Shown one piece after another: positions 2,509 through 37,094 of a stretch of DNA of 64,000 nt. Position numbers and translations under genes: made by a program. Position 1 is the first letter of the stretch. The number at the start of each line of letters is the position of its first letter. Source of the stretch: Bryum argenteum (lineage: Eukaryota > Streptophyta > Bryopsida > Bryales > Bryaceae); assembly GCA_037043015.1 (NCBI GenBank), contig CM073321.1, forward strand, positions 13,586,001 to 13,650,000, given 5' to 3'. The notes beneath the pieces were generated by a model, which saw nothing but the letters and a program-made list of their open reading frames with translations, was not told the DNA's origin and did no database searches.

Positions 2509-2715
2509 GGTAACATAGAGGATGTCAGATGTTCAAGATTGGAATGACGGGTGCGCCGGCTGTAGATATATTTTATTATATTTTAAAATTGAATCTGAGT
2601 TCCGGGGACAAGGTATATAGTAAGAGTGGAGCAAGGAATCAAAATCATTTAATCTTGTTAGCTTAAGTAGTGGACATCGAGAGCTGTATTCTTGTTTTCT
2701 TGTGTTGTGTTCTCA

Positions 2716-3135
2716 GTTCTAGAGACTACATGAAGGACATAGTTGAAATACCTGAGAGTAGTGCAGACATTCAACAGAAACGGAAGAAGAAGAGAGGAGG
2801 TTTGAAGTTTAGTGGTTCTAAACAGCGCAGGCGGATGGCGTTGAGGCGGAAAGAGTCAATGTCTCAATCCAAATGCGATGGAACAAGAGAGGAGCGCGAA
2901 CTTGAAGGGAATGCGGAGCGGCCGGAGCCAACCCCATTCCAACTGAGGTGTATTAGACGAGCCACTAACTTAGAGAGTGTTTCAGAGGTCGATGAGTATG
3001 AAAAAGTAGAGGAAGATTGCGAGAACACTATAGACGAGGTCTTCTCTACTGCTTCAAAGTATTGCACTTCCCAGAGTGATTCTCACCGCGCCGAGAATGA
3101 CGATGAAGACGAAGGAGTTGATTCGGATGAATTGG
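2716..3135 (+). CDS. Unrecognised internal exon, basic then acidic
   Basis: An open stretch begins after a good acceptor (TTCTCAGTTCTAG before 2716) and ends at a donor (GAATTG/gtaatt at 3135). The first ATG is at 2730. The product starts with MKDIVEIPESSADIQQK, has a strongly basic patch (KRKKKRGG, KQRRRMALRRKE) and ends acidic (NDDEDEGVDSDEL). That composition suggests a nuclear, disordered polypeptide. I recognise no domain. No matching downstream exon was found before 3.7 kb, so it may be another orphan exon like the fragments that follow. Confidence 0.35.
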
Positions 3136-3766
3136 TAATTTTTCAATTGCACATTAACTTCTCTATTTGCCTAATCTAAGTACTTGGAAATTTGGATAAA
3201 GAAAACTTGATACTTTCTTTCCACATCCTTGTAGATTGTATAAAATCAATTTTGTTAAGTAAATAGACCATATTCTCCATCTCCCTGTAGATAAACCCTT
3301 ATGGTTGCTTCATAAAAATCATTTCATCTGAATCTCCATAAAGGTAAGAGTCACAAATCCAACAAACAAGATATGAATAATCTATAATCTAGTATATAAG
3401 CAGAGTGTAAAAGTGAACCGTTCTGCATTCTCTGAGGTGCCGAACAAATGAATATAAAGTAGCCTTCATACTCTTTCAGTAGTTCACAATCATTTAAACC
3501 AAAATTCTGTCCATTGATCACACAGACATCGATGCATACTGATACATCCATAGACTAGATTATGTACTTCAGTTTAGTACATCATAGACTACACTAAATT
3601 TGATAATTAGTGTTAGATTATTATAAGATTTGAAAATGATATAAGTTTTTACTTTTGTTTCTAAAAATTTACCATCGCAAACGGAGGTTCTCCAGAGCGT
3701 TCGGTAAGGTGCCTGGGGACATCCAACTGTGATCCTAGCATCTGAAACATAAGATGTGATAGTTAC

Positions 3767-3863
3767 CTCTTTGACTTCCTCAACAGCGTAGTAGGCTTTC
3801 GTTGGGATACCAAGCTCTCTCGGCTGTACATCGATGATCACCAGGACTGGATTTGGACAATAA
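3767..3863 (-). pseudogene. RPN8: Orphan exon of 26S proteasome subunit RPN8 (MPN domain)
   Basis: A 97-nt exon with intact splice signals (TTCATGCAG before 3863, GAG/GTAACT after 3767) encodes [18 protein letters not shown] followed by [14 protein letters not shown]. This is nearly identical to the corresponding part of plant RPN8, the MPN-domain lid subunit of the 26S proteasome regulatory particle. The flanking exons of RPN8 (WYSTGPKL... before, the HVPSEIGAEEAEE region after) are not found within several hundred bases on either side. It is therefore a single transplanted exon, not a working gene. A second short stretch with AG/GT borders (about 3670-3743 on the same strand) lies downstream; I could not assign it. 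The plant-type sequence also supports a green-lineage host. Confidence 0.85.
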
Positions 3864-4381
3864 CTGCATGAACAGCATCATAAGCACTTAGATACGTTAA
3901 ATGATGCCAGTATGTACTACTGGAAATGAAACATGATTCCGACACAACAGCCCACAGTCAATGCCTCAACCCAAGATGCAGGAATCGGAACCTCTAAAGG
4001 ACCAGATAGTCATGTTCTTCGAAGACTGTCAATACTTCCTCGGTGATAATTGCCGCATGTGTGCACAGGATCGAAGTTCATCTTAGTTGTATGTTTTCTT
4101 TCAATAGCATATTGCCAGCCGATGTGTTGCGGTTTAGGCCAATGAGAGGGGTCGGTCCCGAATCTGGCATGGTCGACTCTGGCTGCCAGCACGCCACCAT
4201 CGCGCCGAGTCTGCCACCATCGCGCCGAGTCTGGCGCCGAGTCTGGTTGTGAATTTTCTCATCCCTCCACCACCGCGCCGCGGGCCATCGCGCCGAGTCT
4301 GGCTATGTCTTTCTCGTCGCTGCAGGAAGTCTTTTTTCTCCGTTTTTTTGTTTTCTTCCGTTCCAAGTTATCCTCACAGAA

Positions 4382-4618
4382 ATGGCTGGGCAGATTGGAG
4401 GAGAGATTCACGTTGGAGAAGGAACCCGAGTCGGAGGGGAGATCACGATGTTGGAGCGCGGAAGGGAGGGTGCAGACGTCGACGTGGTGAGCATTCAGAC
4501 AGAGTATTCGTTTTGGGAGCATTTAAGAACTTGTGGGAAAAGTTTGCCCATTTCGATTGAGGTAGGAAGGGAGAGTTTCCTCGCCGAATTGGAGACCGAG
4601 ACAAACACACAAGAAGAG
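4382..4618 (+). CDS. Unrecognised open exon candidate
   Basis: An ATG at 4382 opens about 79 codons, starting MAGQIGGEIHVGEGTRVGGE and ending at a plausible donor (GAAGAG/gtatga). The only visible bias is a Gly/Glu-rich start. It sits between the RPN8 and GH32 fragments and could be one more captured piece. The antisense strand is also open here, so coding direction is uncertain. Confidence 0.25.
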
Positions 4619-4689
4619 GTATGATCGACCTATTCATACCTTTCTACATTCTGATGAGCCTAAACCCTCATGAACTGCTCTACGTGATC

Positions 4690-4819: not shown

Positions 4820-5343
4820 GTGTAGAGTATGTGGTTCATGCCGGTGCTGTTAACGTAGGAGTCCGCCGTGCCAATGATGCCGACGACCTTGCCGATCGAG
4901 GCGCTCTGGAAGCGACCACCCTTCGGTGTTCCGATTTCATAGCTCTTCTTGGTGGAGCAGAGGACGTCGTCGTTGATCGTTCCTTTGACCAGCAACGAGC
5001 GGTCGTAGTCGTTCGGGAATGAGTCCAAACCAATTTTCAAATATCACACTTTCTCTGCTTACCCTCGTAGGGGATGGGATAGAAATCCACGCACTCCCAC
5101 AGGCCAGTACCGTTCACGTGGTGTAAGAAATGAGGGAGAACGTCCCACTTCGTGAAATCTGTGCTTGCATTCCTGTAACACAACGCCGTTCCCGTGCCGG
5201 AGCCTCCTGAGTGCTCTTTCGAGCCGATCAACATCATCCAGTAACCGTCGCTGTCCTTCCAGGCCGTCGTGGGATCGCGGAAGTCGAGTCGGTACACTCC
5301 CGCTGGTGGCCACAGAATCGGATTCTCCGATGCACTCATGTAC
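4820..5343 (-). pseudogene. Glycoside hydrolase family 32 (invertase-type) fragment
   Basis: Read from 5343 to about 5060, the peptide carries NPILWPPAGVYRLDFRDPTTAW, which should be read as two joined motifs: the NPxLxPP segment and the RDPTTAW box. GSKEHSGGSGTGTALCYRNA and GLWECVDFYPI follow. RDP and EC are the substrate-binding and acid/base motifs of GH32 beta-fructofuranosidases (sucrose or fructan cleavage in vacuole or cell wall). The acceptor at the 5' end is good (CCTCTGTCCCCAAG before 5343). From about 5030 to 4820 a second piece in another frame continues (GLDSFPNDYDRSLLVKG, then a YEIGT motif), as expected after DFYP in GH32. Only about 31 bases separate the two frames, too short for a normal intron, so a deletion or frameshift is likely. 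The N-terminal nucleophile exon (MNDPNG) and the C-terminal beta-sandwich are absent. Confidence 0.8.
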
Positions 5344-5429
5344 CTTGGGGACAGAGGAGGCACAAACAAAGTTGCAAGATGAGCTGTGATCAGCACAAGG
5401 GACAGGCTGCAGGAGCTTTAGGCCACCCA

Positions 5430-5700
5430 CCAGATATACATCTGAACGAGACATTTAATCCATTTTACAATGCCAGTGAATTTAGTGGAGCGTACGAGAT
5501 ACTTAAAACGATGCTCATGTCACCAGTGGCAGTGGTGCGGGTATTAGTATTTGTGACAACGCTTATATTAGGATATTTGATCACCAAATTAGCGCTGTAC
5601 AAAGCGGAGAACGTGTTGACAAAGCCGTTTCCTCAATGGCGTCGCTCACTGATGCTACCAGTTCGTCTATTCGCTCGAGTCAACCTCTTTGCTTGTGGGT
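5430..5700 (+). pseudogene. N-terminal fragment of an LPCAT/LPEAT lysophospholipid acyltransferase
   Basis: The peptide runs NETFNPFYNASEFSGAYEIL, then KTMLMSPVAVVRVLVFV, a hydrophobic span containing LGYLITKLALY, and PFPQWRRSLMLPVRLFARVN, ending LFACGF. The pattern NPF, a membrane span beginning PVAVVR, then P-x-WRR and LFxxGF is that of the N-terminal membrane region of eukaryotic lysophosphatidylcholine or -ethanolamine acyltransferases, which act at the ER in phospholipid remodelling. The catalytic HxxxxD part is missing because the sequence passes into the palindromic repeat array at 5697. On its left it abuts the antisense GH32 fragment with almost no spacer, making a chimera of two unrelated genes. 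Assignment to LPEAT rather than LPCAT is uncertain. Confidence 0.7.
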
Positions 5701-6200
5701 TCTAGTATTTCTGCCGCTACCTCGTGTACGAGGGATGCTTCGAGTCTGGTAAGATTCTATTTTTTGGTCAACCAGTTTCAACCAGTCGAAGACCAGTTCG
5801 AGGACTTCGTGATCAACCTGATCAAGTTAATCGTGTGTTACAGCGAATGAGGGGTGCCCTCGTGTACGAGGATGGGTATGATGTGGTCGTCATGTTTGAT
5901 CTAAACTCCGGGTTCTATTATTTCTGCCGCTACCCTCGTGTACGAGGGAGGCTTAGAGTCTGTTAAATTTCGATCTTTTGTCAACCAGTTTCAACCAGAC
6001 GAAAACCATTTCGAGGACTTCGTGATCAACTTGATCAAGTTAATCGTGTGTTACAGCGAATGAGAGTGCCCTCGTTTACGAGCAAGGGTATGCTGTGGTC
6101 GTCATGTTTGATCTGAACCCGGGTTCTAGAAATTCTACTTCTACCCTCGTGTACGAGGGAGGCTTGGAGTCTGTGAAATTTTGTTGATCTGGTCGTGAAA
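5697..6200. repeat. Tandem repeat, 211-213 bp unit, about 2.4 copies
   Basis: Copies begin with GGGTTCTA at 5697, 5910 and 6121. Each full unit holds two palindromic sites (one after GCCGCTAC, one after AGGGGTGCC or its variant) and the phrase GAGGACTTCGTGATCAAC. The third copy degenerates after about 80 bases. The array starts exactly where the acyltransferase fragment stops. Confidence 0.85.
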
Positions 6201-6804
6201 TTTTGTGGTAACTTCGAGTGAAGGGGTGCCCTCGCGTACGAGTGTGGGATCAAATGGATGCTGCTATGTGGGAAATCAGAATTTGAGGGCTCCCTCGTGT
6301 ACGAGGATGCCCACACATATGCTTGTAAATGTTTGTAAATTATGCTCTCAAAACCTTAAATCGTCTAAATTTAGGATATTCTTGTAGTTCTTTATGATTT
6401 AATTGACCATTCTTGCAAATTATTGTAGTTTTTGGTGCATTCATTTCGTTCCATTGTTTTTGAGGTAAGGTAGGCATTAAAATGTTTCTCTACTGAACCG
6501 ATTTTGATTATACTACGTTTACAAAGAAGGATAGCAAATAGAGTTTCGACGGGTGCCTCGTGCACGAGGTTGGGTAAAGAATTTGGTTGTTTATCATATT
6601 TTTGTTTATTCATTTGATTACATTTTGGGAATGGGCATTGTGCTTAAGCATCTCACCACTTGTGGTAGGGATCCTCGTATACGAGGGTGGGAGGGAGTCT
6701 AAACCAGTTGGATCAAAAGTTTGTAAATGTTGGAAATCATTTGAAACAATGGGCTTTGGAATTGGGCATCACTCCACTTGTGGTAGGTACCCTCGTATAC
6801 GAGG
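5721..6804. repeat. Cluster of ten palindromic CCTCGTNNACGAGG sites
   Basis: Sites lie at 5721, 5858, 5934, 6070, 6145, 6230, 6293, 6556, 6673 and 6791, each 14 bp. Seven are perfect CCTCGT/ACGAGG inverted arms around a two-base centre (GT, AT or GC) and the rest differ slightly. The two CCCTCGTATACGAGG sites are full palindromes. Sequence between sites is partly repeated (211-bp unit; a 118-bp unit around 6673 and 6791) and partly unrelated, so the palindrome is conserved better than its surroundings. An eleventh site is at 11274-11287, on the far side of the methyltransferase-like gene. Confidence 0.9.
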
Positions 6805-7524: not shown

Positions 7525-7851
7525 GAGTTCTCTGCGGATAGCATGGAGCATGTTATTGAGTCTGACACTGATAGTAGTGATTTTGATGGAATAAGTCACG
7601 GTGTTCAAAATTGGATTGGAGACCGTACCGTTGTCTTAGGTTTACCTGCCACGATCGTTCTCATGGCTGAGCCCTCTAATGGGGATTCTTTTCCCCGTTC
7701 CAATGTTGTATCATCCAATATTGTTGACAAGGAGGCTCATGCTCTATACATGAGAGAATGGCGGCGTCATACACGTGAGAAGAGACTAGAAGCTCGAGAT
7801 GCGGCCCGTTTAGCCCCTAGACGGTCTCCTAGGCTAGCAACTTTTACTTAA
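7525..7851 (+). CDS. Upstream small ORF or 5' exon of ParB/methyltransferase copy 1
   Basis: After the acceptor at 7524, an ATG at 7542 opens 103 codons: an acidic start (MEHVIESDTDSSDFDG), a basic stretch (MREWRRHTREKRLEARD) and the end RRSPRLATFT. A counterpart with the same ending motif (CCSPRLAAK) precedes copy 2 at 42179-42465, also about 170 bases before the ParB-like exon. The conserved order suggests it belongs to the same unit, either as a separate small protein or as a 5' exon. RRSPRLA-type basic motifs occur in many plant transposon proteins; function is unknown. Confidence 0.45.
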   Translation, partial: EFSADSMEHVIESDTDSSDFDGISHGVQNWIGDRTVVLGLPATIVLMAEPSNGDSFPRSNVVSSNIVDKEAHALYMREWRRHTREKRLEARDAARLAPRRSPRLATFT

Positions 7852-8029
7852 CTTGATTCATGATTTGACTCTCCATTTTGTATTGTCTTTGACAATACAA
7901 TGATTTATAATTTGTATTATCCATGGATGATAGTTTACTAATCATCATATTATTACTGTTATATATATATTGACATTTGTTGTTTGCATAAGTTTAATTT
8001 AGTGTTTTACCCTTTCAATTATCCAGCCA

Positions 8030-10940
8030 AGAGATGGCGATGACGATAATGAGAATGGCGAGCATACTCCCTTGAGTATTCCGGAGACCCAACCCATGGA
8101 AGAGGATCGCAGTCTGCCGAACGTCCCGACACCATCCACTCGACAAGACACCCCCCCGCGCCATCACGTAAGTGACATTGAGAATGGGGACGGGCCAGCG
8201 CTTACTCCGGATGAAGGGGCCCAAGCAGTGCTTCCTAGTGAGCATCTTGCTATTGTGCACGCATCGCACGCCCTTGGGCTTGCTTCACCGGAGAGAGCGC
8301 AACAAATGGACGGCCCGTCATCTCTTTCCGAGGATTCCGACGATGATGAGACCGCTAAACATCCTTCACATCTCAAGGATAAGGATATGAAGTTTAGCGA
8401 GCACGAGATTTGAGTTTGCACCACGACGGACTCCGTTAAGGCCATCAAAGGGATTCTCAACAAACCGGAAGATAAGTCCCGGTTTCGAATTCCTTTATGT
8501 CGCCTTCAATCTTACCCGGAGGTTAGACCTGTTCTTGAAGCCGACGTGCAGAGGCTTCAAAACGAGTTTGCCCGAGGTTATAGGGAGGGTGATCGCGTCA
8601 TGTACGTCTCGTTATATGACGAGGATAGTCGGGATCTTCTTGTTTCCCCGGAGATTGTCAGCACTTGGGATGAACATTGGGTGAATGAAAATAGACGATT
8701 CGAGGACGACCTGTCTAGTGACGTCCACCTCCATCAATTTCAAGGCAAAATGTTTTTTGTCTATGAAGGGAATCATCGTTTGGCTGCATGGATGCGAGAG
8801 ATTTCACCAAGATGATCCTTCTTGGAACATTCGGGTTGACTGCATCGTGCTTGATGCACGGGGAAGGAATGGCGTTCTCGTCAATGCCATGGCTGACGTC
8901 AATTGGTAAGTTGGTTGTCTTCCATGAAGTTCGATTTACAATTTTTTTCATTAAGCTTAACTTCTTACATCCTCATGCATATGGTTTGAATTGTAGGTCA
9001 ACCGAGATCGACTTCGTGAAGAGTAGTCTTCCAGCGAAGTTACAACGAATTCGGACGTTCGGATCCATGAAACTTGAGGCTTTCAGGGACTTGATTTCAG
9101 AAGAGGCATATGTTTTTTGCCAAAAAGAGAAATCAAGGCGTACCACTTGGTATTCTCTGACAGTTGACGTATTCGTAGCATTCTTGTTCAAGGTAATAAT
9201 TTTAAGTATTGATCTTCCAAATACTGCTTATGACTATCGTCAAATGTTATGTAATTTGTACTGTGTGATTTTCGTAACTCACAGAGAGAGGTTTCAAGAC
9301 TCGGGCTCAAGACCTTGCTGCAAAGATTTACAAGGAGACCACTGCTAAAGAGAAGCAAACCGGACACGGGGTGTGGTTGGCTATGCATCATGCGCAACAA
9401 AAGACCATCAAGATCTTAAAGGGTCGAAATTTTGAGAAATTTATTTCGAGCACGGAGACATGGGTGAGGTTTTGAACTTGAGCGACACTAATTCCCGCAT
9501 GGAACCTCAGGCTGTACGCATTATGCAGCATATTCGTAAGGTAAACCCATATTCTCATAATTTCATATTGTTTTCGATGTCCCTCTTTAATCGTGGTGAT
9601 TTTATGACAATAATAATTGTTATACTTTATCGTCCAGGTTGGGAAAGGTCGTGATAAGCCCATTCAAAACATGACTATGAAGCCCAAACATCCCCGCATT
9701 GACCTAATCATCGCTGATGCACCTGAAAACCTTACGGTGCCTCTCATCGAACCACACGTTGTACCCATGTGGAACATGCGAGATGACGATTATTTCGATA
9801 ACGTGTTCGCATTTGCTGATGCGAATCTAACGGATGATGGGGTTATACTTCTCATGCACCCAAGGGATAGGGCCATTGAACGAGAGTTGGACGAGTGCAC
9901 GATAGTTACCATTCAAGATTGTTCGTGATCGGTGGGGTTATAACCCACTTCGTTTGACGTCCGCTGTTGCACTCTGAGTAACGGTAAATCTACAAAGATT
10001 TATATTTCTATATTGTTTTCTCCGTTCAATTTGATAGATTGTAATGTGGTTTTCTAATCGCCCGATTGGATTGTGTAGACTCAGAACTTCCACATCAAGG
10101 TCTTTGCAAGAAAGGATGCAAAGTTTGAAATAAAGAGATCGAATGGTCTATGGGGCACTCGACATTCTCCCGGACGACAATGACAACTTAACCAACTTCA
10201 CCCACGCCGAAGACCAGATGTTACGCCCCGATGGGAAACCGTGGCGGTTCGCTCGGGAGAAGCATCCAGATTTCATCCAGTGTTTTATCGAGTGCTTGAC
10301 CGACGAGAAAGACATCGTGTTTGATTGGAGTGTTTCTACAGGTATGTGGTTTATGTCAAGATTGAGGATAAATGTGATCAAGTGATTTATACTAACACTT
10401 GCTCGAATTGTTTTTGTACAGAGCTTCATTATCGCATGCAAACGAACGAATCGTTTTCTCATCGGCTTGGAGCGAGATGAGGAAATCTTCGCGACAGTCT
10501 TGAAACCGATGTTAGAGCAATCGCAAAGTCGGCTTGATGCAAGCTCATCCAGAGATCTTACAGAGGATGTGGAGCCTAGGAGGAAGAAACCTGGCAAGTA
10601 CATGGGTGCGTTATATCTGCTCTTTGTATTTTAACTTTTATGACGCTTTTGTCAACGGGAATTTCTAAACTTCACTTTGGAATCTAGTCACGCAGGATTG
10701 ACTCGAAGATTATCACTCCATTTGGATCTCATTCGGAGTCCTCCATCGCCATTTGCGCTTCCCTCGTATGCTGAGCGACTTGCCGAGCAGTGGGTGGCAG
10801 CTCCATCTCCTATTCGTGCTCAAGCCCAGCGACCAAAGTTTCCTCAGAGTGTATTGCGCTTCATAGATTTTGAAGCTGACCAATGTGATGAAGAATTTGA
10901 CTCGCCCCACGATAGCGACCATTCTCTTGATTACTATTGA
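8030..10940 (+). pseudogene. ParB-like / DNA amino-methyltransferase-like protein, copy 1
   Basis: Exons read left to right. From 8030 to 8905: an acidic leader, then IPLCRLQSYPEVRP, FARGYREGDRVMYVSLYD and VYEGNHRLAAWM (GNHR codons 8768-8779), a ParB/sulfiredoxin-like signature, then VDCIVLDARG. Further exons are 8997-9192 and 9285-9540. From 9638: DLIIADAPENLTVP (DAPEN at 9716-9730), in the place of the DPPY motif IV of beta-class DNA amino-methyltransferases, then LTDDGVILLMHP. From about 10082 to 10341: DGKPWRF and IVFDWSVSTG. From 10422: RTNRFLIGLERDEEIF, resembling the FxGxG region and following acidic residue. A conserved tail (LPSYAERLAEQW, SVLRFIDFEADQC) ends at TGA 10940. Motif order IV then I fits the beta class. 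It is damaged: an in-frame TGA at 8411-8413 and frameshifts near 8800, 9400, 9900 and 10140. Catalytic activity is unproven, since DAPE is not a standard motif. Confidence 0.65.
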
Positions 10941-11550
10941 ACTTAGCCTCCCTATAGCTTTTGGCAACAATATTCGATATTTTTGAATTCGTATGTTTTC
11001 AACTCATTTATGAGTTACTATTACTTATTTATATATCTTGGCGTATTGGTGTTATATTAAACCGTTTTAATTCTAATTACCATGTCTAAACCGCTCTAAT
11101 ATTTTTTTGATCACTGCAAATCAAATTTGTTGTTAGAGTGAGTCGTTGTATATAAAACTCAGTTTGTATTAAGTAAGTTTATGAGGTAATTGGGATTTTG
11201 AAACCATAATATGTAAATCGAACAATTTTTTTCTTAAAAAAAAAAATCTATTTTTAGGGGTTCCCTCGTGTACGAGGAAGCCCCATACTTCTGACAATTA
11301 TGTCACCTTCTCTCGCCCTTCACGACTTTTACTTGAGCAAGAGAAACCCTAAACCACCTAAACCCCTAAAGTGATGACGTCTGTGATGACGTCAGCCCTA
11401 ACCTATTGTATAGTGTACCTAAAAACCTAAACAAATGTGACTTAAGTCCACGGGTTTGGGAGCATTTACTTCTAAACCCTATACCAATATTTCAGTTTTA
11501 TTTACCCTAAACCGTGGTAATAGGATACTTAATATTCGTAAACTCGGGGG
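10941..11550. other. AT-rich spacer with one palindromic site
   Basis: No gene is seen. The only notable element is the isolated CCTCGTGTACGAGG at 11274-11287, the same site as in the 5.7-6.8 kb array. Together they bracket the ParB/methyltransferase copy. Confidence 0.6.
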
Positions 11551-11946
11551 GATTTTTTTGGAAATTTTCTCACCGCTCACCGCTCACCGCTCACGCCTGT
11601 GCATTCCCCCCTTGAAATTGGCTACCCCTGCAGAAGTGAATTTGAAACGTACTAAGTGTTCCACCTTAGTGTGCTTTCGCCCCTTGTATATTATGAGAAT
11701 AAGTCTAGTCACATTTGTGCTGGAATCTTAATCGAATACAGTCACATGTTTTATTCCGGTGACTGTAAGTAGTCTTACTATTGACAACCTCTGATCAGTT
11801 GTTATCACATCTTGTCCGTTTTGTAACTAAGACTAGTCTATAGTCTGGTCGCACGACGACGCTTAATAGTCAGACTGCTAGATGACTAAACACAGTCACA
11901 GATACTAAAAAATGACTAAGACTCAGAAAATGGAATGAGTTACTTC

Positions 11947-14702: not shown

Positions 14703-15189
14703 GCTCCAGCTCTAGTGCCTGGAACAACGGCAGCTTTCGGAGCATTGAATTGAGTCAAACAACAGAACTAGAACAGTTCTGAAAAAATCTCAGAAGTCTG
14801 TACTTGCACGAAACAACATGCCAGCAGAAGTTACAGGACCTAGTCACACCTTGCGACTGTGTTCGTGACTAATACTGGTCACATTCAACACATGTGAGAG
14901 CAGACATAATAGAACCAAGGGGGTCTTCCGAGGCAAGAACGCAAAAAGACCTGCCAACGCAAGAAGACCTGCCAGCGCAAGAAGACCTGGAATACATTTG
15001 AAAAGCTGAGATAATTGTGCACAAAAATTTCTCACCAAATTATCACGCACCTCTCCTTCTGATCGGCCTGCGTGGCTCTTCTTCTGCACCTTGCTGCGGC
15101 AGGATTGCTACGGTGCGTGCAGTGAGCAGATTTCTATGAGCGGTGAGCAGGCTTTTATGATCGGTGAGCAGATTTTCCTGAGCGATTTT

Positions 15190-15528
15190 CCATTTTTAGA
15201 GGGAAGTTCTGACTGAGTTTGGGCCAAATTATTTGGACCACTTATGAGGGTCCTTCAATTTACTTAGAATAAAGTAGACGTTGCTCCAATTTGAGTGGAT
15301 TATGTAACGATTTGATGACAAAGAGTTTTGGAGAAGGAGTGTGTATAACCGTGCTTTAGCCTATAGCCGTGAAATGTTACGGTTTTAAGTTGGAACATCC
15401 CTTACTATGTTTTCTGGAAATTAGGGCTGACGTCATATATATATCGTAAATAAGAAATTCAGGGCTGACTTCATTAATGTATAATATAATTTACGTAAAG
15501 GTGGGTCCCTAGAATCGCGACCTTAGTA
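15190..15528. other. AT-rich spacer, no gene seen
   Basis: No supported coding or RNA feature was found between the CACTA right end and the ParB-like copy 3 stop codon. Confidence 0.5.
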
Positions 15529-16995
15529 TTATGACTTGGGGCCCTGCTTCTCGATGAGCATCTCGGAGAGATGGAAGGTCTCGTAATGCTCCTTCACCTT
15601 CTCGATGAACTTACCTTCGTACTTCTCATCACAAATTGGAAGAAGCTTCTTCAGCTCCCGTTCTAAAGTACCTTTCTTGACTGTTACATGCTTGTGGATG
15701 TATTCGTTAATCCCGTGCCCTATCCATTCCTCCCTATTTGGAAACATCTTCTCAAAATTCTTTGCTACAGTATTAACAGCCTTTGATATATCACTCTGCA
15801 TTTCACAAGAAAGGTGTATTAGTGGCGTTACAAAAGTATATGTTGGCAGGGACTCATATGTGATAACTAACCCGGTAAAGGAAGTTTGTAAGCCCAGGAA
15901 TCGTAAGCGAAAACCAAGTCCGAACACTTTTGGTCTCTGCTTTGTTATAATCAGCCTCTGACACCAAGCCCTTGAAATATTCAAGAGGCTTTTTCCAACT
16001 GCATACAATTGATATATCTTATGCACAAGATTCTCCTTCACATGGCTGTTTTGATTGCGCCTGAAAATCCATCAACGACAAGCAATAAATGAGAAAACGG
16101 ATTGAGTTAAATTTCAAATTGAAATGGTTGAAAGGATTATGAAGGTAGAAACTTACTGATTTATGTCATACAAGATCATAAGCGTGTCCATAACTCTACC
16201 CCTGACGTCCAGAATGATGTAATCAACGGAAAAATGCCACTCAATGTCATGAGCGTGCTTTCTGTTGATGATTGGTAGCCAAGCCTGCAACCGGTGATTA
16301 CCATCCCAAACATCAAACACTTTGTTCGAGAACTGTTGCAAAACTGGACCATCTTTCAATTTCGCTTCAAACTCGTCGTTAACAGCATTCGAGTTGTCGC
16401 TCCACGACAGCATCTCCTTCTCAGTCACGTCATGGGACTTGGAGTTGTCGTCTTCTAATGCAACATAGAAGACAGTCGCGCCCTCAATGTATCCTTCATA
16501 TTCAAATCAACTTTGAAGTAGTTCGATATCATTCTTCATTGCTGGTCTTACAGCTGTCAGTACCTTCAGCCTGCAAAGAGAAATGTTCAGAGGTGAATTT
16601 TGTTTGGGCTTCAAACGAAGCGCGTCTATCCAGGATCCAGTGTGAACAGCCTCCTGGCTTACAAGACTGTCTAATCTCTCCTCGACCTCAGCCTCTATCA
16701 AGGGAATACTATCGTGATCCACCAAACTCTCCTCAGCTGGTTGGGGTCCTTCATCGGGATGTCCACCCTCAACCACTATCTGTTCAAAAGAGCGCAACTC
16801 CTCAGCAGGCCGTCCGTGTTCAACGATGCTCTCCTTAGTGGGACCTTTGCCCTTATCCAGCCTCGAGGTCAATGACATCTTCGCTAGTCGATCAACATCG
16901 TCCACGTCATTTGTATGCGTTGATCGAGTTGAAGGTCGATTCTCAGGTGTCGGTGTGGCGAAGGTTGTGTTCTTCAAAGCCGACTCCCCTTCCAA
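15529..16995 (-). pseudogene. ParB-like protein, copy 3, lacking the methyltransferase half
   Basis: Read right to left: an acidic leader, NISLCRLKVLTAVRPAMKND, an in-frame TGA at about 16510, then FEYEGYIEGATVFYVALEDD, VFDVWDGNHRLQAWLP (GNHR codons 16291-16302) and VDYIILDVRGRV. The exon ends at a donor (AATCA/GTAAGT) in the same place as in copies 1 and 2. Later exons include one from 15796 to 15529 (acceptor GAAATGCAG) encoding NREEWIGHGINEYIHKHVTV and ending in a TGA stop. The motifs PLCRL, VRP, GY-x-GD/A, GNHR and VDxIxLDxRG align with copies 1 and 2 throughout the ParB-like half, but no DAPE or STG region follows. It is either a truncated relative or a subfamily with another C terminus. 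One break is visible in the ParB-like half. Confidence 0.6.
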
Positions 16996-17199
16996 CTGAC
17001 TAAACTCATCTGTTTGAACACAGAAACGGAAGAATAGTCAAGAAAACTTATACAAAAAAGGAGTTACAAATCTTATCCTATATTGTCTGCCTTCATTTGA
17101 TGAAGCTCATTCCAGGGAGGGCAGACAATGGGAGCTGCTTCATAAGGTGATTAATAGTTCTTGGGCGCAATGTCAAAGTTGGGGTTTGATGTTGTCGCC

Positions 17200-18300
17200 T
17201 CGGTATGCTGTGTTGCGACGCGCCCTTCGCTTTGTCTCGACGCGTCCTTCGCTGCCTTCGACGGCTGGTAGGGGCATGGTAAAGCCCCAGCGTGGTAAAG
17301 TTCCTACGGGTCGCGGGACCTCATCAGGTGCCCGACCCCCCCACGCCAGCCGCGTGGGGGAGTAAGGATGCGGCCCAGAGCGGCGCTGGGGTCGGGGTAG
17401 GTGAGCGGGCCAGGGCCCCATCCGGCACCCGACCCCCACCTACATGGCCGATTATGGCTGGGAGGGGCGAACGTGTCCCCGAGGGGCGAACCCAGGCCTC
17501 TGGCGTTGAGGCTCCGCAGTGGGGCGAGTACGGGTCGCAAGACCCCATCGGCCACCCGACCCCCACCTGACTGCAACGCAGCCCTCACCTACCTCAAGCT
17601 GCGCCCACGCGCTGGGTTGCGGCAAATGAGGGTCCTTGGACACCAGCAAGCGCCAGACTCCTTCTCAGATTGCAAATTCACCTAGAAAAACTTCAAATTA
17701 TTATTAGAACCGCAACAAATCCAATAGAAATACCCTATCGGGTACCCGATGAGAAATACAGATTAATAGTTCTCCATTTAATTTTGACATTTATAAATAC
17801 AAGCACATTCAACAAAGGTTTTCGTTATCATATTTGAAGATTTAGCGAAAGTATTAGGCAAACTTACCTCGTTTGCATTGATGATCTTGTCCTAGCTATG
17901 AAGAAAAAATCAATCGAAAGTCTCCAACGGGTACGCGATGGGGTCAGAGTTGCCAAATAGTAGGCATGACAAGCGCGACAGAATACCATCGAGGAGATGT
18001 AAGATTCTTCTTCTTGACCCTGTCGGGTACCGGATGGGGTCTTAGGTGCCATTGGGTGTTGTGACTGGCGCTGCTTCAGTGGCGCTGCTTCAGTGCGCAA
18101 AACATCCATTTTATTCCCATTGAGTACCCGATGCAGTGTTTAGGGCTCCTCTGGAAGGCCTTGGTTACCATGTCAAAGTGGCAGAGAATTGGCTTCAATC
18201 GGTTCAACTCACTCTTTTGTGATGCGGTTTACATGATGCGGCATAAGTGAGTGTCAGAGGCTATGGTCCGGCACCGGATGGGGTAAGGGCTGTAAATCCA
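17200..18300. repeat. GC-rich region with dispersed CCCCATCNGGTACCCGA-type words
   Basis: Related words occur near 17320, 17417, 17545, 17735, 17925, 18020, 18120 and 18268, for example CATCCGGCACCCGACC, TATCGGGTACCCGATG and TGTCGGGTACCGGATGG. The clearest core, CGGGTACCCG at 17739-17748, is a perfect palindrome. Intervals of 90-190 bases suggest a degenerate tandem array. ORFs here overlap on both strands and follow the GC richness; none is convincing. Confidence 0.55.
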
Positions 18301-18824
18301 AGGCAACCACGCCGTAGATTATGTTGAGCCCATTCCAAAACGGTAAAGAACGTCATGATCGGACTTAAAACGGAGGAGTTATGGACGGATGAAGTTTTGA
18401 ATTTCCAAACTTCATCTGCAGATGGCTCCGTCTTACGTCTAAATCGCAAACTTGAGGTGGTTTCGGAATCCTTGCGCTGTACCCTACAGCGTGGTTGAGA
18501 TTTTTTTGCGTAATCGAGAGATCCTCTATGCGTCCACATGTGCAACTCCAAAGAAACGACTCTTGAATGAGGTGGAATTTGCTGATAAGGGTCCGTCCAC
18601 GGTGTTGCCCGGGACCTGTGGATTCCGGAATGGTTTGATCCGCTGCGATCGGACACCCCATGGATGCGATATTGACGGATGAGGTTTTTGACAAACCATG
18701 GGGTTTTAATGGTTTAGTGCTTAGGGTCACACTATCACACTTGCAGTGCACGGAGCTACACCGGTGTTATTAGAGAGGGCTGCACCGGTCTTACAAGGAT
18801 CATGGTCACACCAACACACCAATA

Positions 18825-20998
18825 GTGGACAGTGCTACAGCGGTGTTACAGGGCGGTTTACACTGTCAATACACCAAGGTGATGACAATTGCCATTTGCG
18901 ACATGCAATCTGAGACTAAGGACGCACAATCATACCTTTGGAGGATGCTTAACGAAGTTATGGCGCGTCATGGTGTCGTCAATGTCAATTTCAAAGCTTT
19001 TATGGCTGACAGCGCTCAAGCCAACTGGAACGCTGTTCGAGAGATTTACGGGACGGGAGACAAGACTGTGCCCATGAAAGAGAAGGAGAGATCGTGTCTA
19101 CTCCACTGGACAAAATGCATGCTTATAGTAACAAACTTATACGGAACTCCGGTGCTCCGCGATGAGCATAAGGGAATCTGTACACAGTATAAGGATGCAA
19201 TCAATATGGACGAGGCCGAGACACGCTACCTTGCAATTCGATCGTGGTGGGTGTCAAGTGAAGCTGTTACAGATTCAAATTTGCCAGCCATGGATTCCTG
19301 GCTGGCGCGGTGGCATTTCCGTTACAGGCAATGGGGAGCCTTCATGGATCTCGTAAGCATGCTTTAACTTTTGTTTCTGTGATATGCTTAAATATTTCTC
19401 TCGACGTACCATCCACCACGGCACTTTCCATTCTTCTCATACCTCTATTCTGTGGACATGCCTCCCTTGTACCGCCACTCCCATAATTCATTTTCCTACA
19501 CGATTCACATATTTTTGTACTCGCATTTGTTTAGATTTACGTAACAGTTGGTTTTCCATTTCCAACAGTCCAAATGACCTAATTTGACTTTGTGCAGGAC
19601 CTTACTGATGAAGAGAAAGCTGAAATGCCAATGTGCAATTTGGCTGAAACCATCCACACTGCGTGGTCAAAACAGTCCGGTAAACACATTCAGGATATTT
19701 TAAAAACATCGATGGACGATTATGTCAGGGCATTCATGCAATGCATACGTTACAACGCTTTTCTACACGGTAACCGCGGTGGAACTGGACCGGACAAGGA
19801 GGTGCTGCTCTTCAGGCTCGCACATCGAAGTAGGAATCTGAATACAATGTACAAAGCCATGGAAGCCATCCCCAGTGCTAAGGACTTCCTGGTTGCGGAC
19901 CCTAATTATGTTGGCGAGGAAGTTTTTGGATCAAGTGAAAGGCGTTTGGAAACGCAACCTGGTGCTGATGACGATTCCCATCGGTTCGACAAGGTTAACT
20001 TCTCTCAGCCAAAGCACTCCAAAAGGAGAACACGCTCTCAGGGATCTCCTTCTACTTCTATTCAATTAGATGACGAAGACGTGGATGATATTCCAGCGGC
20101 TGCGCCAGTTCCAACTGCACCCATTGTGCATGTCACTGAAGTCCAAGAAGATGATTGTGAGAAAGGAAAATTGCATAACCGTCGTGTTCCTGCAAATATC
20201 AATCCGACTTGTATTGGAAACCGGAGCACATCAAAGCAATGCCAACAGAAGATCAGTGGGCCAGCAGGCCCAGCACCTACATTCCATGGGACTCGTCACT
20301 ATCGCCCGAAGAACCTCGACGTCAAGCAATTTTTCTACTTCTGTCCAGATGATCTGAACAGGTGTGCTAAAGGCCCCCGCAGAAGGTGGATTACGGATCT
20401 AATTCTTGATGTCCAAACGGTTTGGCTTGTTCGTAAAGGAACAAATCTATCTATGCGTGAGGTCTTGGCACTTCAACAAGCGGGATTCCAGCTACAACAA
20501 AAACGACCAATGCCGATGGAGCGTCAGTTTGGATATAACGTTGCCATTGCGGATCAAATTGAAAGCATCCCAATCCCAACACAACCAGATAAGTACATGA
20601 CGGTGCGCAACGACAAATCCTGCAAGCATTTCGTCACTCGTAAGAACTCGGAGAAGCAGCTCGCAAGGTGGGAGTCGGCAACGCTTCTACACGCAGAGAT
20701 GGCCCGGATCACCCTTATTCCTAACCCAGGTATCGGAGCAGTCATTGATTTGAAATCAACCAGCGGGTCAGAGGCAGCGGAGTACAAGCTTACGATAGGA
20801 TCATTCTCTAGCTGCACTTGTATTGATTTCACAGATATGGCAGTGCACCACAAAGGGCGTGGAGGATGGTATAACTGCAAGCACCTATGCTACATTTTCC
20901 GCATGGTTTGTGGATTCCGACTCCAAGACGACCACCTCGTGACCGCCCCCACCTTAAGCTTCAACGAGATAAAGCGCGTACTGCTTGCAGGGATTTAG
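18825..20998 (+). pseudogene. MULE-like transposase with SWIM zinc finger, N-terminally truncated
   Basis: Exon 1 (homology from about 18865 to 19352) carries MTIAICDMQSETKDAQ, FKAFMADSAQANWNAV and a LLHW box, then a W-rich segment WHFRYRQWGAFMDL. The intron is 19353-19597 (gtaagc ... gtgcag). Exon 2 (19598-20998) is one long open frame of 466 codons with an NNxxLHGNR-like helical region, a basic/acidic linker with nuclear-localisation-like KRRTRSQ, and a C-terminal SWIM finger SCTCIDFTDM ... GWYNCKHLCY (CxC ... CxH). This is the order of plant MULE transposases. The zinc block and leader present in the 0-2 kb copy are missing here and replaced by unrelated sequence, so it is probably inactive despite the clean second exon. 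Confidence 0.75.
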
Positions 20999-21204
20999 GA
21001 TAAGATCTCGGTACGAAATTAGTAGTTCTTGTTCACGAAGGTCCACGTCAAAGCCTTTGGTGTCTAGACTACCAAAGTGGTTTAACCAACATCCCACTTT
21101 TAAAAGTAAATGTTGGACTTCAGATTTCCTTAATCATGAACATAGCTCACAAACATTTTGGATGCACCACCTTATCTTGAGTTTCGTTTTGTTGTTCAAC
21201 TTCA

Positions 21205-21330
21205 ACCCTCGCTCACTCTCACTTTCTTCACCCTCGCTCACTCTCACTTTGTTCACCCTCGCTCACTCTCACAGTCTCACTTTGTTCACCCTCTCTCACT
21301 CTCACTGTGTTCAACTTCTACCCTCGCTCT
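21205..21330. repeat. Microsatellite-like CACCCTCGCTCACTCTCACTTTGTT array
   Basis: Four to five imperfect copies of a roughly 25-bp unit (CCCTCGCTCACTCTCACTTT) follow the SWIM transposase gene. It has no coding value. Confidence 0.85.
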
Positions 21331-21713
21331 AACGACTAACGTCTCCGTGAGAAGCATGACCCCGTCACAGGTATCTTACCCCTTGCACACCCTCCTTGCA
21401 TGTCACGGCGCACCATGTCTAGCACGACGGGCGCGCTTGTGTGTGGAACGCGCCCCCGCCTGCACAGTGCACTCGCCCCCGCGTGAAGTGAGGACGAGCC
21501 ATACCATTCCAGTTCATCGGCGACCACCTCTACGGCCACAAACGATAAATTCTTCACACGGTCATGGGTTTATGCAATGAACCCACGACCCTATAGCCAT
21601 CGCCTTCTATATTGATGATTTCGATGTACTCTGCTTAATTTCCACTCAAAAATCTGATCATTGCTCTTGAAAATCTGCCCATTGCTCGTGAAAAACTGCT
21701 CACCGCTCACCAC

Positions 21714-22604
21714 TCACTGCTCACCGCACGCACCGACACCACCTTGCTTGCTGCGGCTCGCCTTCCGCGCCTCAGACTCCTTCTTCTTTCGGTCTTCGTT
21801 TATCAGTTTAGTCAAATTGTGTCGGAACGGAGGCGGACATCCGGGGGGGCACTGTCCACCTTTGAGGATTATCTGCTTGGTGTGGTACCGCTTCATCCGC
21901 AAGTGGTCCATCATGACCTTGTAGAAGCCTTCCTCCGATAGTCTTCCCAACCCCCCACGGTACTCGGTGATGGCATCGACTTGGGCTTTAATATCCAAGA
22001 GCATTGCCTAGTCGTGAAGTTTGTAGTTGTCGATGCTGAAGTCGATGTTCTTGCTCTATCCTCGCAGAGTTGTAAAAAACTTTGACTGGTGCAGCCTTAT
22101 GGGATTGTTTGTCGCATCCACCTCGACCCAGATGCGCTTGCCGGACTCTGTCGGCTTCACCTCGGCCCTCGCCCCACCCTTCCTCTTCTTGTCTCGGTCG
22201 TAGCCTGCAGACCCTCCGGATGAGGATGCCATGAAGGCATTAGGACCTCGCATCTTCAAGACCTCGAGGTCCTTCTTCGCAAGCTCCCTCTCAACCTCCA
22301 AAATTGCCAGTGCATGAGCATCTGCTGTAGGGGGCTCCTGGTCTTGGTCGTCCTCCTCTGCCACATCTTCGTCTCCCGACATCTGAGAAATGTCTTCAGT
22401 TCCGTATATGTCCTCGTCTGAGTACATCTCCTCGTCCTGTAGCTCTTCCGACATCTCGATAGACGTCCTTCTTGTTTGTGGCTTAGAAGCCGATGGTGGT
22501 TGAGGTGGTCTTCTAGGCTGTACACTCAGAAGCTTGCCGGAACGGTCCCGCTCAACAATCCCCCACTCCCGCATTTTACAGGATCTTTGTTTGCCCTGCA
22601 TCAC
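21714..22604 (-). pseudogene. CACTA tnpA-type protein, Transposase_24-like domain
   Basis: Two consecutive minus-strand frames (22604-22056 and 22004-21714). The first has an acidic linker, then GKRIWVEVDATNNPIRLHQS, typical of the entry to the plant Ptta/En-Spm (Transposase_24) domain. The second has GLGRLSEEGFYKVMMDHLR, CPPGCPPPFRHNLTKLINED and KKESEARKASRSKQGG, matching the end of that domain, where N/K-x-x-RSKQ is the usual mark. One or more breaks separate the pieces. The C-terminal end overlaps the subterminal GCTCACC repeats, so the protein is cut by the element end. Confidence 0.55.
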
Positions 22605-24456: not shown

Positions 24457-25034
24457 AATTCGAGGCGGCCCTTTGTACAGGCAGCAACCATGGCCTCATT
24501 GCGAGCCTTCCTCGGTACAGCAAGACCCCGCCCATCACTCGCTACTTCCGACCATGAGTCAAACATGATTGTGAAAGGAGAGTACGGGCAGTGGAGGCCC
24601 GGCCCCATTCCAAAGCTCCGCAAATTTATTTTTTGGGGTAGAGCCTCGGAAGTGAAAGTGTCACAATTTTTGTTTATGGGATGGGGTTTATTTGTTTAGA
24701 GGCAGCGAAGGCTGGAGATGAGCTTCTACCATTTGTCGGCCCAGAATTAGATGCACAAGAATTCCGAATAGCTCATTGTACCTCTCCACGTTTCCGGCGA
24801 TACGCGCTTGCTACAACCGAAGAAATGTTCCTGAATGGGGATGTCGAACTCGGGAATGTTGCTGGATTTATAAATAGCAGCGAGGGGCGATCGGAAATCC
24901 AAAACCGCCAGTGGGATTTCGTGCCTCTCCCGGCGCTTTGGAACCAGAGCTATCATGGTTACGTAATTACGATAGCATTAAGGAATATAGTTCCAGGGGA
25001 CGAGTTGTTTGCAGAATACAGGGTCGGGAAGTAA
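24457..25034 (+). pseudogene. SET-domain segment lodged between tnp2 exons
   Basis: After an acceptor (CGCCTTCTAG) at 24456 the reading starts with RRPFVQAATMASLRAFLG and reaches SQFLFMGWGLFV. A one-base frame change near 24690 follows, then LEAAKAGDELLPFVGPELDA, GDVELGNVAGFINSSEG and ITIALRNIVPGDELFAEYR, with a stop at 25032-25034. GWGLF, NVAGFIN and GDELFAEY correspond in order to the G-x-G-L-F entry, the NH-type pseudoknot strand and the final aromatic motif of SET lysine methyltransferases. The usual N-H-S-C is altered to I-N-S-S, so activity is doubtful. It lies in the intron position of tnp2, so it is either a captured host fragment or a domain acquired by this element. Confidence 0.6.
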
Positions 25035-25268
25035 ATATTTGTCTGTACACATGTTGCCGTTAAGACAAGCACTAACGCTTTGGAATGCTTGACCAATCAT
25101 TGTTAAATAATGACTAGTTCTAGTCACATATTTGTGATAAGTCACTCCTCATAGTCGCCGAGTTTGATTCTCCTCAATACTATGACTACACTCTGTCATA
25201 TCTATGAAAACAATGACTGATTCTAGTTTCAAGTCGTAAACTTCATTACTGTCTTGGATCCATTGTGA

Positions 25269-27777
25269 TTGAAAATAGCTGGTTTCTCTACTCAGGATTG
25301 TTATGACGATCCGGACCATCCTCCTGAGGCCGAGGCTGCAACAGCAATCGACGACCCTGCAGATGTCCTCCGCGGCCCTGCACCTATGATCCACAACCCT
25401 CCTCATGATGATTGTATAGAGGACTCGGAAGCTAGATTTGAGAACCCCCCTCCTGAGGCCGGGCCATCCAATGCAGCTGCCGCAGTACCCGAAGTGGATC
25501 TGATGCACATGATCACAGAGTGTTTTCAAAGATACGACTCACTTGCCGATGATTTATTGAACGACCTAGTCGGGTCGGTGCAGGAAGAGGAAGCGGCAGC
25601 AATTGGAGCCGAGTTTGAAGATGAACTAGATGAGGACTTTATGGCAGGAGCACAATCACCCCTATATCCAGGTTCATCGACGACATCACTACTTGCCACT
25701 TAATTGTTGCCGAACCTCTCTACTGCGTTTGGCATTTCAGCGAGCTGTACAAACAAGATACTTGTGCTACTAAAGGAGCTCCTTCCTCGAGGTAACACCC
25801 TACCAGAGTCTCTGTATGCAGGTACCCGGATGATGCGCAAGATGGGGTTGACATATGCTTTGATTCATGCTTGCACAAATAGGTGTGTGCTATTTCGTAG
25901 TGAACTAGCAGCAGCAACACACTGTCCCGTCTGCCAATCACCACGTTACATTCCAGGCTCAAAGCAGAGACCCAACAAGATCCTTCGTCACTTTCCTTTG
26001 ATTCCAAGGCTACGCAGGCTGTATCGCTGCAAACAATTGGCAACCATGTGCACTTGGCACACATCAAGGCCAACACAACCAGAGAAGATGGAGTGTGTTC
26101 CAGATTCTCCGGCATGGAGGCACGTAAATACATTATTCCCAGACATAGCCGGTGAAGGCTGCAACATTAGGCTGGGTTTGGCACTAGATGGGGTCCACCC
26201 CTACTCCAATCTCTCCCTCAACCATTCCACCTGGCCAATCGTTCTCTTGAACTACAACTTGCCTCCTTGGCTTGTGACAAAGACATTCTTTATCATGATG
26301 GTTTTGATCATCCCAGGAAAGGAGAGTGTCACGGCGAACAACATTGACGTGTACTTGGCGCCTTTGCTAGAAGAGTTGCTACAGCTGTGGGCTGGTGTGC
26401 AGGCATTCGACGCTTCGGCTCCTCTTGAACACATTTTGTTCACCCTGAAGGCCATACTCCTCTGGTGCATTCACGACTTTTCTGCGTATGGCCTCGTATC
26501 AGGGGAAGTTACGAAAGGGTATCGAGGATGCCGTGAATGTGGTTCATATGTGTCAAGTAGAAGGTCCTCCGCACTCGGGAAAAATTTGTATATGGGACAC
26601 CGGCGATATGCTGCACCCAATCATTCCTATCGGAGACAGAAAGCAGCATTTGATAGAAAATCGGAGACAAGACCCCCCCCTCCACAGTTCACAGCAAGGG
26701 AGATTCTGCAGTTTGGTCGGGACAGGGAGGCTTGGACGGCCACAACAATCCAGCGGAGGGGAGTTCGGCATGCAGACGATCCTGTGCAAGTTTCTGACGT
26801 GAAGCGAACGAGCAATCTCTACAGACTGCCGTATTGGGAGGTGAGCACAGTGTTGTGCTTTAGAATGCGTTACACTCTATCATGGCCATGCATCCATCGG
26901 GTTCTATTTTTACGTGCCGATTGTCTAACACATGCTGTGGGCTGCTGTATTTCAGTCCTTGATGATACGACATCTGCTGGACCCGATGCACTGCGAGAAG
27001 AATATTACGGAGAATGTGTTGCGAACCATCTGGAAGCAGAAAGATACATTGAAATCGCGGCTGGACTTACAGGAAGCCAAAATTTCGCCACATCTGCATC
27101 CACTACCAGGAAGGAAGCCAGGATCGATGATTCTACCGAAGGCACCCTATGTTCTGTCTGAGACAGAAAAGAAGGAGTTTGCGGACACCCTGCAGAAGCT
27201 ACGACCTCCATCATCGTAAGTAGGAAGTCTTCGATCGATGGTGACAACGGACGGGGACCTTAGAGGTCTAAAGTCGCATGACTACCACGTTTTGATGCAG
27301 CAGCTATTGCCGCTCTGCATTCGGACGCTCCTCGATCCAACTGTCAGGGTGGCTATCATCCGACTGAGCCGCTTGTTCTAGCGGCTATGTGCAAAGACTG
27401 TTGCATTGTCGACCCTTGACGCCCTGTACGATGAGAGCATAGTGACAATGTGCATGATGGGGAAGGTTTTTCCTCCTTCCTTCTTCGAAGTTATGTCACA
27501 TTTACCTATCCATCTAGTGCAGCAATTGCGGATTTGCGGCCCTGTGCACAACCGGTGGATGTACCCAATCGAACGGTTCCTGAAGACACTCAAGGGCTAT
27601 GTCAAGCAACGCGCTAGGCCAGAGGGATCCATGGCGCGAGGCTACATACAGACTGAGACTATGGGATTCTGCACCCAGTACTTGCAGGGCTGCACTCTTA
27701 GCGAGAGACGAATCTGGGATGGTAACCAAGAACCCAAGGTCAGCGGCGAGGTTATAAGCAGCAAAGGACGTCCCTGA
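25269..27777 (+). pseudogene. CACTA tnp2 transposase (Transposase_21) with DUF4218
   Basis: The acidic N-terminal linker ends DFMAGAQSPLYPGSS, the usual tnp2 PLYPG entry. An in-frame TAA lies at 25701-25703. Then LLPRGNTLPESLYAGTRMMR, a CPVC finger, RHFPLIPRLRRLYRCKQL, DSPAWRH, RLGLALDGVHPYSNLS, NLPPWL, LIPGKESVTANNIDVYLAPL and HDFSAYGLVSGEVTKGYRGC: the catalytic RNase H-fold core with conserved LALDG and IPGK. The intron is 26841-26955 (gtgagc ... tttcag). Next come LDPMHCEKNITENVL, an in-frame TAA at 27218 and LKSHDYHVLMQQLLPL. Another stop (TAG near 27379) precedes the DUF4218 domain, with HLPIHLVQQLRICGPVH, NRWMYPIERFLKTLKGYV and KQRARPEGSMARGY. Three stops in an otherwise readable frame indicate a fairly recent loss. 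Confidence 0.85.
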
Positions 27778-35013: not shown

Positions 35014-35089
35014 GGGGAATGCACGAGTGTGAGCGGAGAGCGGTGAGCGGTGAGCGGTGATTGGCAGATTTTTTTTTTTTTTTTTCATG

Positions 35090-36950: not shown

Positions 36951-37094
36951 TAAATCGGGTTGGTGAGGTTGGATGGGAAATCCAAAGTTCTCTCCTTATA
37001 TACAAGAACGGAGGAAACGGAAGCCAGCATCTCAGAGCAGTTCGTGGGCCATCTCTCTTTTGAAACTTCTCACTCTTGCACTGTTGTGGATCAA

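Follow-up and report, generated by a model that had tools for sequence, protein, structure and literature searches.

We analysed a 64,000-nucleotide stretch of the Bryum argenteum genome, the window herein (GenBank assembly GCA_037043015.1, contig CM073321.1, positions 13,586,001 to 13,650,000 of the forward strand). At 8027-10940 on the + strand it holds a series of exons with GT-AG borders that encodes the remains of a protein joining a ParB-like domain to a domain resembling beta-class DNA amino-methyltransferases. This gene is a decayed fragment of the second gene of a repetitive Mutator-like DNA transposon, in which it lies divergent from a transposase-like gene. The original prediction, made from the letters of the window alone, had described an intron-bearing fusion gene of this kind and had read it as a captured phage or bacterial modification gene that had multiplied. 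The four peptides on which it was based were all located on the + strand (GNHRLAAW, 8768-8791; DLIIADAPEN, 9701-9730; FDWSVSTG, 10320-10343; ERDEEIF, 10470-10490), and direct reading of the window together with recurrence in other copies confirmed both the peptides and the intron-bearing structure. The features of this copy, copy 1, are as follows.

1-1199, - strand: divergent transposase-like gene, with a zinc-finger-like part and the start of a presumed catalytic part; two in-frame stops; leaves the window
4233-4640, + strand: 5' region common to other copies, with a donor-like GT at 4619
5720-6804, + strand: eight CCTCGTRYACGAGG palindromes, starting at 5720, 5858, 5934, 6145, 6293, 6556, 6673 and 6791
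7525-7851, + strand: upstream exon, a short reading frame with its own stop (EFSAD...RSPRLATFT*), present in most young copies
8027-8905, + strand: exon A, acidic N-terminal part and ParB/sulfiredoxin-like domain (from reading of the window; fold from the homologue P0002)
8997-9192, + strand: exon B, which follows the ParB region
9285-9444, + strand: start of exon C, truncated by an internal deletion of ~1.3 kb
9446-9540, + strand: remnant of the linker exon, 3' of the deletion
9638-9983, + strand: exon F, encoding the half of the methylase-like domain that has motif IV, with DLIIADAPEN
10079-10341, + strand: exon G, with FDWSVSTG at its end (motif-I region)
10422-10605, + strand: exon H, remaining motif-I region, with ERDEEIF
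10696-10940, + strand: exon I, C-terminal tail and stop
11264-11277, + strand: ninth CCTCGTRYACGAGG palindrome, near the methylase-side end
11569-11609, + strand: methylase-side terminus, (CTCACCG)n repeats ending in CACGCCTGTGCATTCCCC; flanks diverge beyond it

Exons A, B, F, G, H and I are each preceded by AG and, apart from exon I with its terminal TGA, followed by GT; exon C starts directly after AG. We searched the source genome (258.8 Mb, 25 contigs), fetched 20 regions with copies, each no longer than 10 kb, and compared them. The exon borders and reading frames recur from copy to copy, and most of the copies are interrupted by some stops or frameshifts. Since the same exons recur in this way and exons A, B and C of one copy, L041, splice to a single open frame of 427 codons, we regard the exons as beyond chance; inspected by eye, the later exons of L041 also have GT-AG borders, and there is a single frameshift in the middle part. 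Counted from exon A, the encoded protein has ~1140 residues and comprises an acidic N-terminus, the ParB-like domain, a ~380-residue middle, a linker, the methylase-like domain encoded by three exons, and a tail. Copy 1 itself carries a TGA at 8411-8413, frameshifts after GNHRLAAWMREIS (about 8810) and near 9900, and, relative to other copies, a deletion of ~1.3 kb of the middle at 9444/9446. The region at 4233-4640 may be the start of a long intron that would contain the palindromes. Rfam and tRNA scans of the window found nothing.

Genome searches with protein or DNA queries scored the best candidates only (150 or 40), and the copy numbers given here are lower bounds. For the methylase exon the best 150 of 881 candidates were scored, of which 27 showed at least 90% identity, with near-identical copies on several contigs; for the ParB exon the best 150 of 1159 were scored. 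The gene is thus present in many copies (at least 150), as had been claimed, but what has multiplied is a DNA transposon rather than a lone captured gene. The methylase-side end, CACGCCTGTGCATTCCCC or a close variant following (CTCACCG)n, was present with differing flanks in 19 of the 20 loci, the exception being L047, and allowing two mismatches it occurs at no fewer than 132 genomic sites versus 0 for the control. No inverted copy of the CATTCCCC end was found in the window or upstream of the gene in the 20 loci. Positions 2600-4640 of the window, upstream of the gene, recur piecewise beside other copies. At three of the 20 fetched copies (L037, L044 and L048), a second family member lies on the same strand ~1.3 kb or less past the terminus, by either chance nesting or target preference.

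The transposase-like gene has a fixed position relative to the fusion gene. Within 15 kb of the 150 listed ParB matches, a transposase match lay upstream on the opposite strand in 47 cases, downstream on the opposite strand in 0, upstream on the same strand in 0 and downstream on the same strand in 2, whereas 200 control trials with shifted positions and random strands gave a mean of 0.7 and a maximum of 4. Upstream, opposite-strand transposase matches were likewise found within 20 kb of 12/31 younger and 27/119 older methylase matches, and elsewhere for 3/31 and 2/119. The ParB and methylase matches shared a strand at a distance of 1.4-3.0 kb in 58 of the 150 listed; of the other pairs, two had the methylase match farther downstream and three had it upstream, still on one strand, and one pair lay on opposite strands. 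Elsewhere in the genome, the zinc-finger-like part of the transposase gene (738-1181 in the window) and the part presumed to be catalytic, a homologue of 18825-19364, share long open frames, such as C6:18114651 and 18115539, both within one 764-residue frame. The gene had no Pfam match, the MULE transposase domain included; SWIM-like and zinc-finger-like motifs were seen by eye.

ParB-N6/N4 fusions are described as frequent in phages (PMC12704722), which would also suit an explanation in which the host took up such a gene from a phage or bacterium and expanded it into a normal gene family of its own that has nothing to do with the adjoining transposons. The fixed orientation towards the transposase gene versus the shifted control, the sharp element terminus in 19/20 loci and the near-identical copies on several contigs make this highly improbable. 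We rejected a transposon-free host gene family because of the terminus, the recurring upstream sequence and the transposase orientation.

The window contains two further copies of the family: copy 2, which has ParB and methylase exons on the - strand and extends from 35014 past 42,500, and copy 3, at 15101-21746. Copy 3 has the following features.

15090-15100: left target-site duplication, CTTGCTGCGGC
15101-21746: complete related element, with inverted ends of ~99 bp that are 73% alike
15872-16602, - strand: divergent ParB-like gene, with GNHRL at 16288-16302 (E 4e-32 to P0013)
18825-20998, + strand: transposase-like gene; a SWIM-like motif, C-x-C-x(n)-C-x-H, was seen by eye close to its C-terminus
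21747-21757: right target-site duplication, CTTGCTGCGGC

Mutator-like elements are described as duplicating 8-11 bp of target (PMC6446971). Since copy 3 has an 11-bp target-site duplication together with terminal inverted repeats, which some such elements lack, we call the family Mutator-like. Other copies of the repeat that copy 3 invaded serve as empty sites: its two flanks match them as pieces that overlap, by 11 bp at ten places (two on C1, two on C2, one each on C4 and C6, two on C7, one each on C8 and C11) and 9 bp at one further place, on C3. The search of copy 3 (15101-21746) for a methylase-like exon found none. Since the family has a member with ParB and transposase genes and no detectable methylase, the methylase part may have been gained or lost later.

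We next considered the two halves of the protein. For the ParB half we used the homologue P0002, which is 69% identical over 73% of the query. The model of its ParB region was fairly confident, and the best structural matches to this model, with modest scores, were nearly all ParB, Noc, PadC or sulfiredoxin; a phage Vincenzo protein named DNA methylase also appeared (rank 22, E 0.036). This fold search, set beforehand as a test of the claim, supports a predicted ParB/sulfiredoxin fold around GNHR. The GxxR P-motif ahead of a helix is present, with EGNHR invariant in 17/17 aligned sequences, and exon A is under purifying selection (ratio of nonsynonymous to synonymous substitution rates, dN/dS, of 0.32-0.48 versus L046). 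No curated NCBIfam ParB model matched at E<=10, Pfam ParBc matched none of 17 family members, and no helix-turn-helix match was found in the middle of the protein, so that the curated-model match and helix-turn-helix of canonical ParB partition proteins are both missing. Comparison of the ParB profile with two phage ParB-like proteins gave just 39.8% probability over 45 columns, the ParB region had a weak phage match to StAugustine (E 9e-3), and the relative P0011 as query found no ParB in phages. Since the phage profile comparison was weak, our ParB assignment draws on the fold search and the P-motif.

For the methylase half, the proposed comparison with the N6_N4_Mtase family PF01555 gave a match to the spliced domain of L041 (3.6e-5, 24.3 bits) that lies in the motif-I half and 2.4 bits under the cut-off of 26.7. 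The same domain matched three DNA methylases in PHROG (7e-7 to 1e-5), with phrog_67 covering nearly the whole domain, and a single-sequence search of PDB aligned DpnA at 0.0024, placing DIVFDWSVSTGASVIACKR over DIVLDPFMGSGTTGLACKN and, in the motif-IV segment, IDLIIADAPENLTV over VDAIITDPPYNISV. In phages, tblastn returned 363 records at E<=10, five of which cover at least 80% of the query (e.g., a Brochothrix phage methylase at 3e-5, 88%), and hhalign against three phage methylases gave 96.8% with E 2e-10 over 190 columns. From the exon order and the phrog_67 and hhalign alignments, motif IV precedes motif I, as in beta-class N6/N4 enzymes. The predicted likeness to this class is borne out by all of these comparisons, and we accept homology to N6/N4 methylases at the sequence level.

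Several results weigh against this assignment and would fit a chance or very remote Rossmann similarity. The PF01555 match falls short of its cut-off and covers one half only, and PF01555 did not match the older copy L050 (two of three exons) or P0019-P0022. The motif-IV segment of the DpnA alignment is by itself not significant. The methylase-half profile (A4) compared with PDB sequences gave chance matches only and no methylase. The model of this half reached a mean confidence (predicted local distance difference test, pLDDT) of 39 and a predicted template-modelling score of 0.22, probably because the homologue used, P0019, carries read-through introns and the alignment had 7 rows. Because this pLDDT is so low, the assignment of the methylase half relies on sequence comparison. 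Several related searches nevertheless agree on the motif-I half, and phrog_67, the phage tblastn matches and hhalign span both halves with the motifs in register, so that we give a chance resemblance very little weight. In the protein database, the full-length query found none at E<=1 among 6419 candidates, and exon-sized queries found 18 relatives (204 candidates) and 6 relatives (304 candidates); these have no precomputed Pfam domain, many are single exons or read-through pieces, and most are on short contigs.

The catalytic signatures of the domain have changed. In 34 motif IV matches from 33 sequences, we read DAPE 26 times, DAHE and NAPE twice each, and DALE, DVPG, DAPK and DVPE once each, and none of the 34 has the aromatic residue expected at the fourth position of [DNS]PP[YFW]. 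Metagenome relatives showing the motif read DAPE, DAPS, DAPD or DTPS, likewise with no aromatic residue there. In place of the FxGxG motif for S-adenosylmethionine (SAM), 31/31 matches, and also P0019 and P0020, have WS[VAIP]STG, in which the last G alone is kept. Since DPPY and FxGxG are replaced in every copy examined, classical DNA methylation is doubtful, and with it the description of the gene as a modification gene. A possible but unlikely alternative is an active DNA methyltransferase with an altered active site that marks its own element with N6-methyladenine, N4-methylcytosine (4mC) or another mark, timing or protecting transposition, as retrotransposon DNA methyltransferases (DNMTs) methylate CG sites. 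Such a role would agree with the retention of the motif IV D in 32/34 matches and of its last P in 31/34, with the slow change of exons F and G (dN 0.02 and 0.04 vs dS 0.11 and 0.12, one comparison each), and with the transposon-borne 5-methylcytosine methylases described in charophytes and dinoflagellates (PMC5890265). The lack of an aromatic fourth residue in all copies and metagenome relatives, and an FxGxG motif that reads SxSxG, argue against it.

Copies of the family carry distinct noncoding repeats. The CCTCGTRYACGAGG palindrome, of which copy 1, a member of the young subfamily, holds nine, occurs at 313 sites in the genome versus 1 for the reversed control. Among the matches listed there are 50 distinct places, all on C1; each is 36 kb or less, and 49 of them are 21 kb or less, from one of six young methylase copies. 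Of the 20 fetched loci, 19 have the palindrome, for the most part in their central noncoding region; the older L050 lacks it. Copy 2 instead carries an array of 57-bp repeats and an additional gene.

35014-35036, - strand: methylase-side terminus
36960-37532, + strand: convergent gene with an ATRX-type ADD domain
37772-39085, - strand: methylase-like exons I, H, G and F (DLIFADAPEN 38963-38992, FDWSASTG 38344-38367)
39741-41061, - strand: middle exons E2, E, D, C and B
41216-41970, - strand: exon A, ParB-like, split by a frameshift into two pieces (GNHRVTAW 41339-41362)
42843-45474: array of 57-bp repeats, upstream of the gene

The core of the 57-bp array has 93 genomic sites (control, 0) in 8 clusters, all on C1, each with an ADD match within 8 kb of its nearest site as read by eye. 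There are thus two subfamilies with two different private arrays, both upstream of the ParB exon. The open reading frame (ORF) at 36960-37532 matched the ATRX ADD domain at 4e-14. The best 150 of 299 candidates for this gene in the genome were scored, and the first 63 of the 150 listed were used for position counts: an ADD gene lay 1.3-3.0 kb past the methylase exon, downstream and opposite, for 10/119 older and 0/31 younger methylase matches. Five further ADD matches lie 8-10 kb upstream of older methylase matches on the opposite strand, near the expected transposase position, and a weaker second group of ADD-like matches (32-45% identity) lies ~2 kb from some ADD genes. Contig C1 makes up 17% of the genome yet holds 68/150 methylase matches and 35/63 of the ADD matches used, and every one of the 8 clusters of the 57-bp array lies there; C1 is possibly a sex chromosome or one rich in repeats.

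The arrangement of a Mutator-like element with an extra gene and subfamily-private repeats resembles that of the VANDAL elements of Arabidopsis. VANDAL elements are described as Mutator-like elements with an additional gene, whose introns and upstream regions hold tandem repeats built on a short subfamily-private motif, and their VANC protein as binding this motif and removing silencing (PMC5735166, PMC10398659). Private motif arrays in noncoding parts are found here in two subfamilies, in a comparison with VANC made by description; the protein differs, being a ParB-methylase fusion. On the basis of this layout, we favour a VANC-like anti-silencing role for the product of the second gene, with a probability of about one half. 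The protein would be directed to its own element through the subfamily-specific repeats beside its gene, either the CCTCGTRYACGAGG palindrome or the 57-bp array, where it could act as a nucleotide-gated ParB clamp. Its methylase-like domain would then bind DNA or SAM instead of carrying out classical methylation, and the outcome would be element chromatin that is kept open, allowing transposase expression.

The parS site of ParB is likewise a palindrome, so a palindromic private motif would suit a ParB clamp. ParB-fold domains can bind nucleoside triphosphates, and true ParB is described as loading at parS as a clamp and spreading (PMC12704722). A clamp on internal and end-near palindromes could instead serve as an accessory factor that helps the transposase to pair ends or choose targets. 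This rival, which we rate well below the VANC-like role and a shade above the active methyltransferase, gains from the palindromes near the methylase-side end, in mid-element and, in some copies, beside the transposase gene (C1:3737367, next to the match at 3735858), and from the pairing of ParB and transposase in copy 3, where no methylase was found. Most palindromes, however, are in the central noncoding region, where the ADD subfamily has the 57-bp array instead, and the ADD readers point to chromatin. About as unlikely as the active methyltransferase is a prokaryote-derived epigenetic targeting system, in which a ParB clamp would load on the private palindromes, spread, and bring a methylase-derived domain that writes a mark other than 5-methylcytosine or blocks host marking; an ADD reader would have been added in one subfamily, and motif and protein would change together between subfamilies.

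Dam-like domains exist in DIRS-type retrotransposons, and a 4mC methylase exists in Marchantia sperm. The closest counterparts to the gene described here are phage and prophage fusions of a ParB-CTPase fold to an N6_N4 methyltransferase (PF01555), which combine the same two folds and are listed as frequent in a survey whose main text contains "plant" and "transpos" 0 times and whose tree includes eukaryotes (PMC12704722). Unlike these fusions, from which it may derive, the plant gene encodes ~1140 residues from exon A with a long middle, has many introns, has lost DPPY and belongs to a eukaryotic transposon. Retrotransposons of charophytes and Symbiodinium likewise combine a transposon with a captured gene of DNA-methylase type, but their enzymes are described as 5-cytosine DNMTs with demonstrated activity (PMC5890265), whereas here a prokaryote-type N6/N4-like domain is fused to ParB in a DNA transposon. 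A bacterial N4-methylcytosine methylase in bdelloid rotifers is also a prokaryote-type amino-methylase in a eukaryotic genome; there 4mC is a reported epigenetic mark (PMC8885841), whereas here the gene is a transposon's and its active site is changed. Transposons with methylase genes and transposons with anti-silencing genes are already known, and the ParB-methylase version is a new variant; the literature searched, mostly without subscription journals and preprints, yielded no earlier account of such a gene in a transposon of a eukaryote.

Two other loci in the window were noted. At 24681-27161 on the + strand, an ORF with a SET domain (4.7e-5, above its cut-off) closely precedes one for a tnp2-type transposase (1.4e-64); the pair may be a CACTA-like element with its own chromatin gene. 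Within the presumed long intron of copy 1, a GH32 invertase fragment (5037-5454, - strand), either captured or inserted, lies in a stretch without a match in copy L044; its best matches are cell-wall invertase structures of plant enzymes.

Genes annotated as ParB or N6/N4 methylase in such genomes may be transposon genes rather than active modification enzymes. If our preferred VANC-like reading is correct, a mobile element of eukaryotes would carry the ParB clamp fold, of which the searches gave no earlier report, with CCTCGTRYACGAGG as a directly testable candidate DNA target. Plant transposons would then have built a VANC-like self-protection from a phage-type ParB-methylase fusion, an independent solution reached with other parts.

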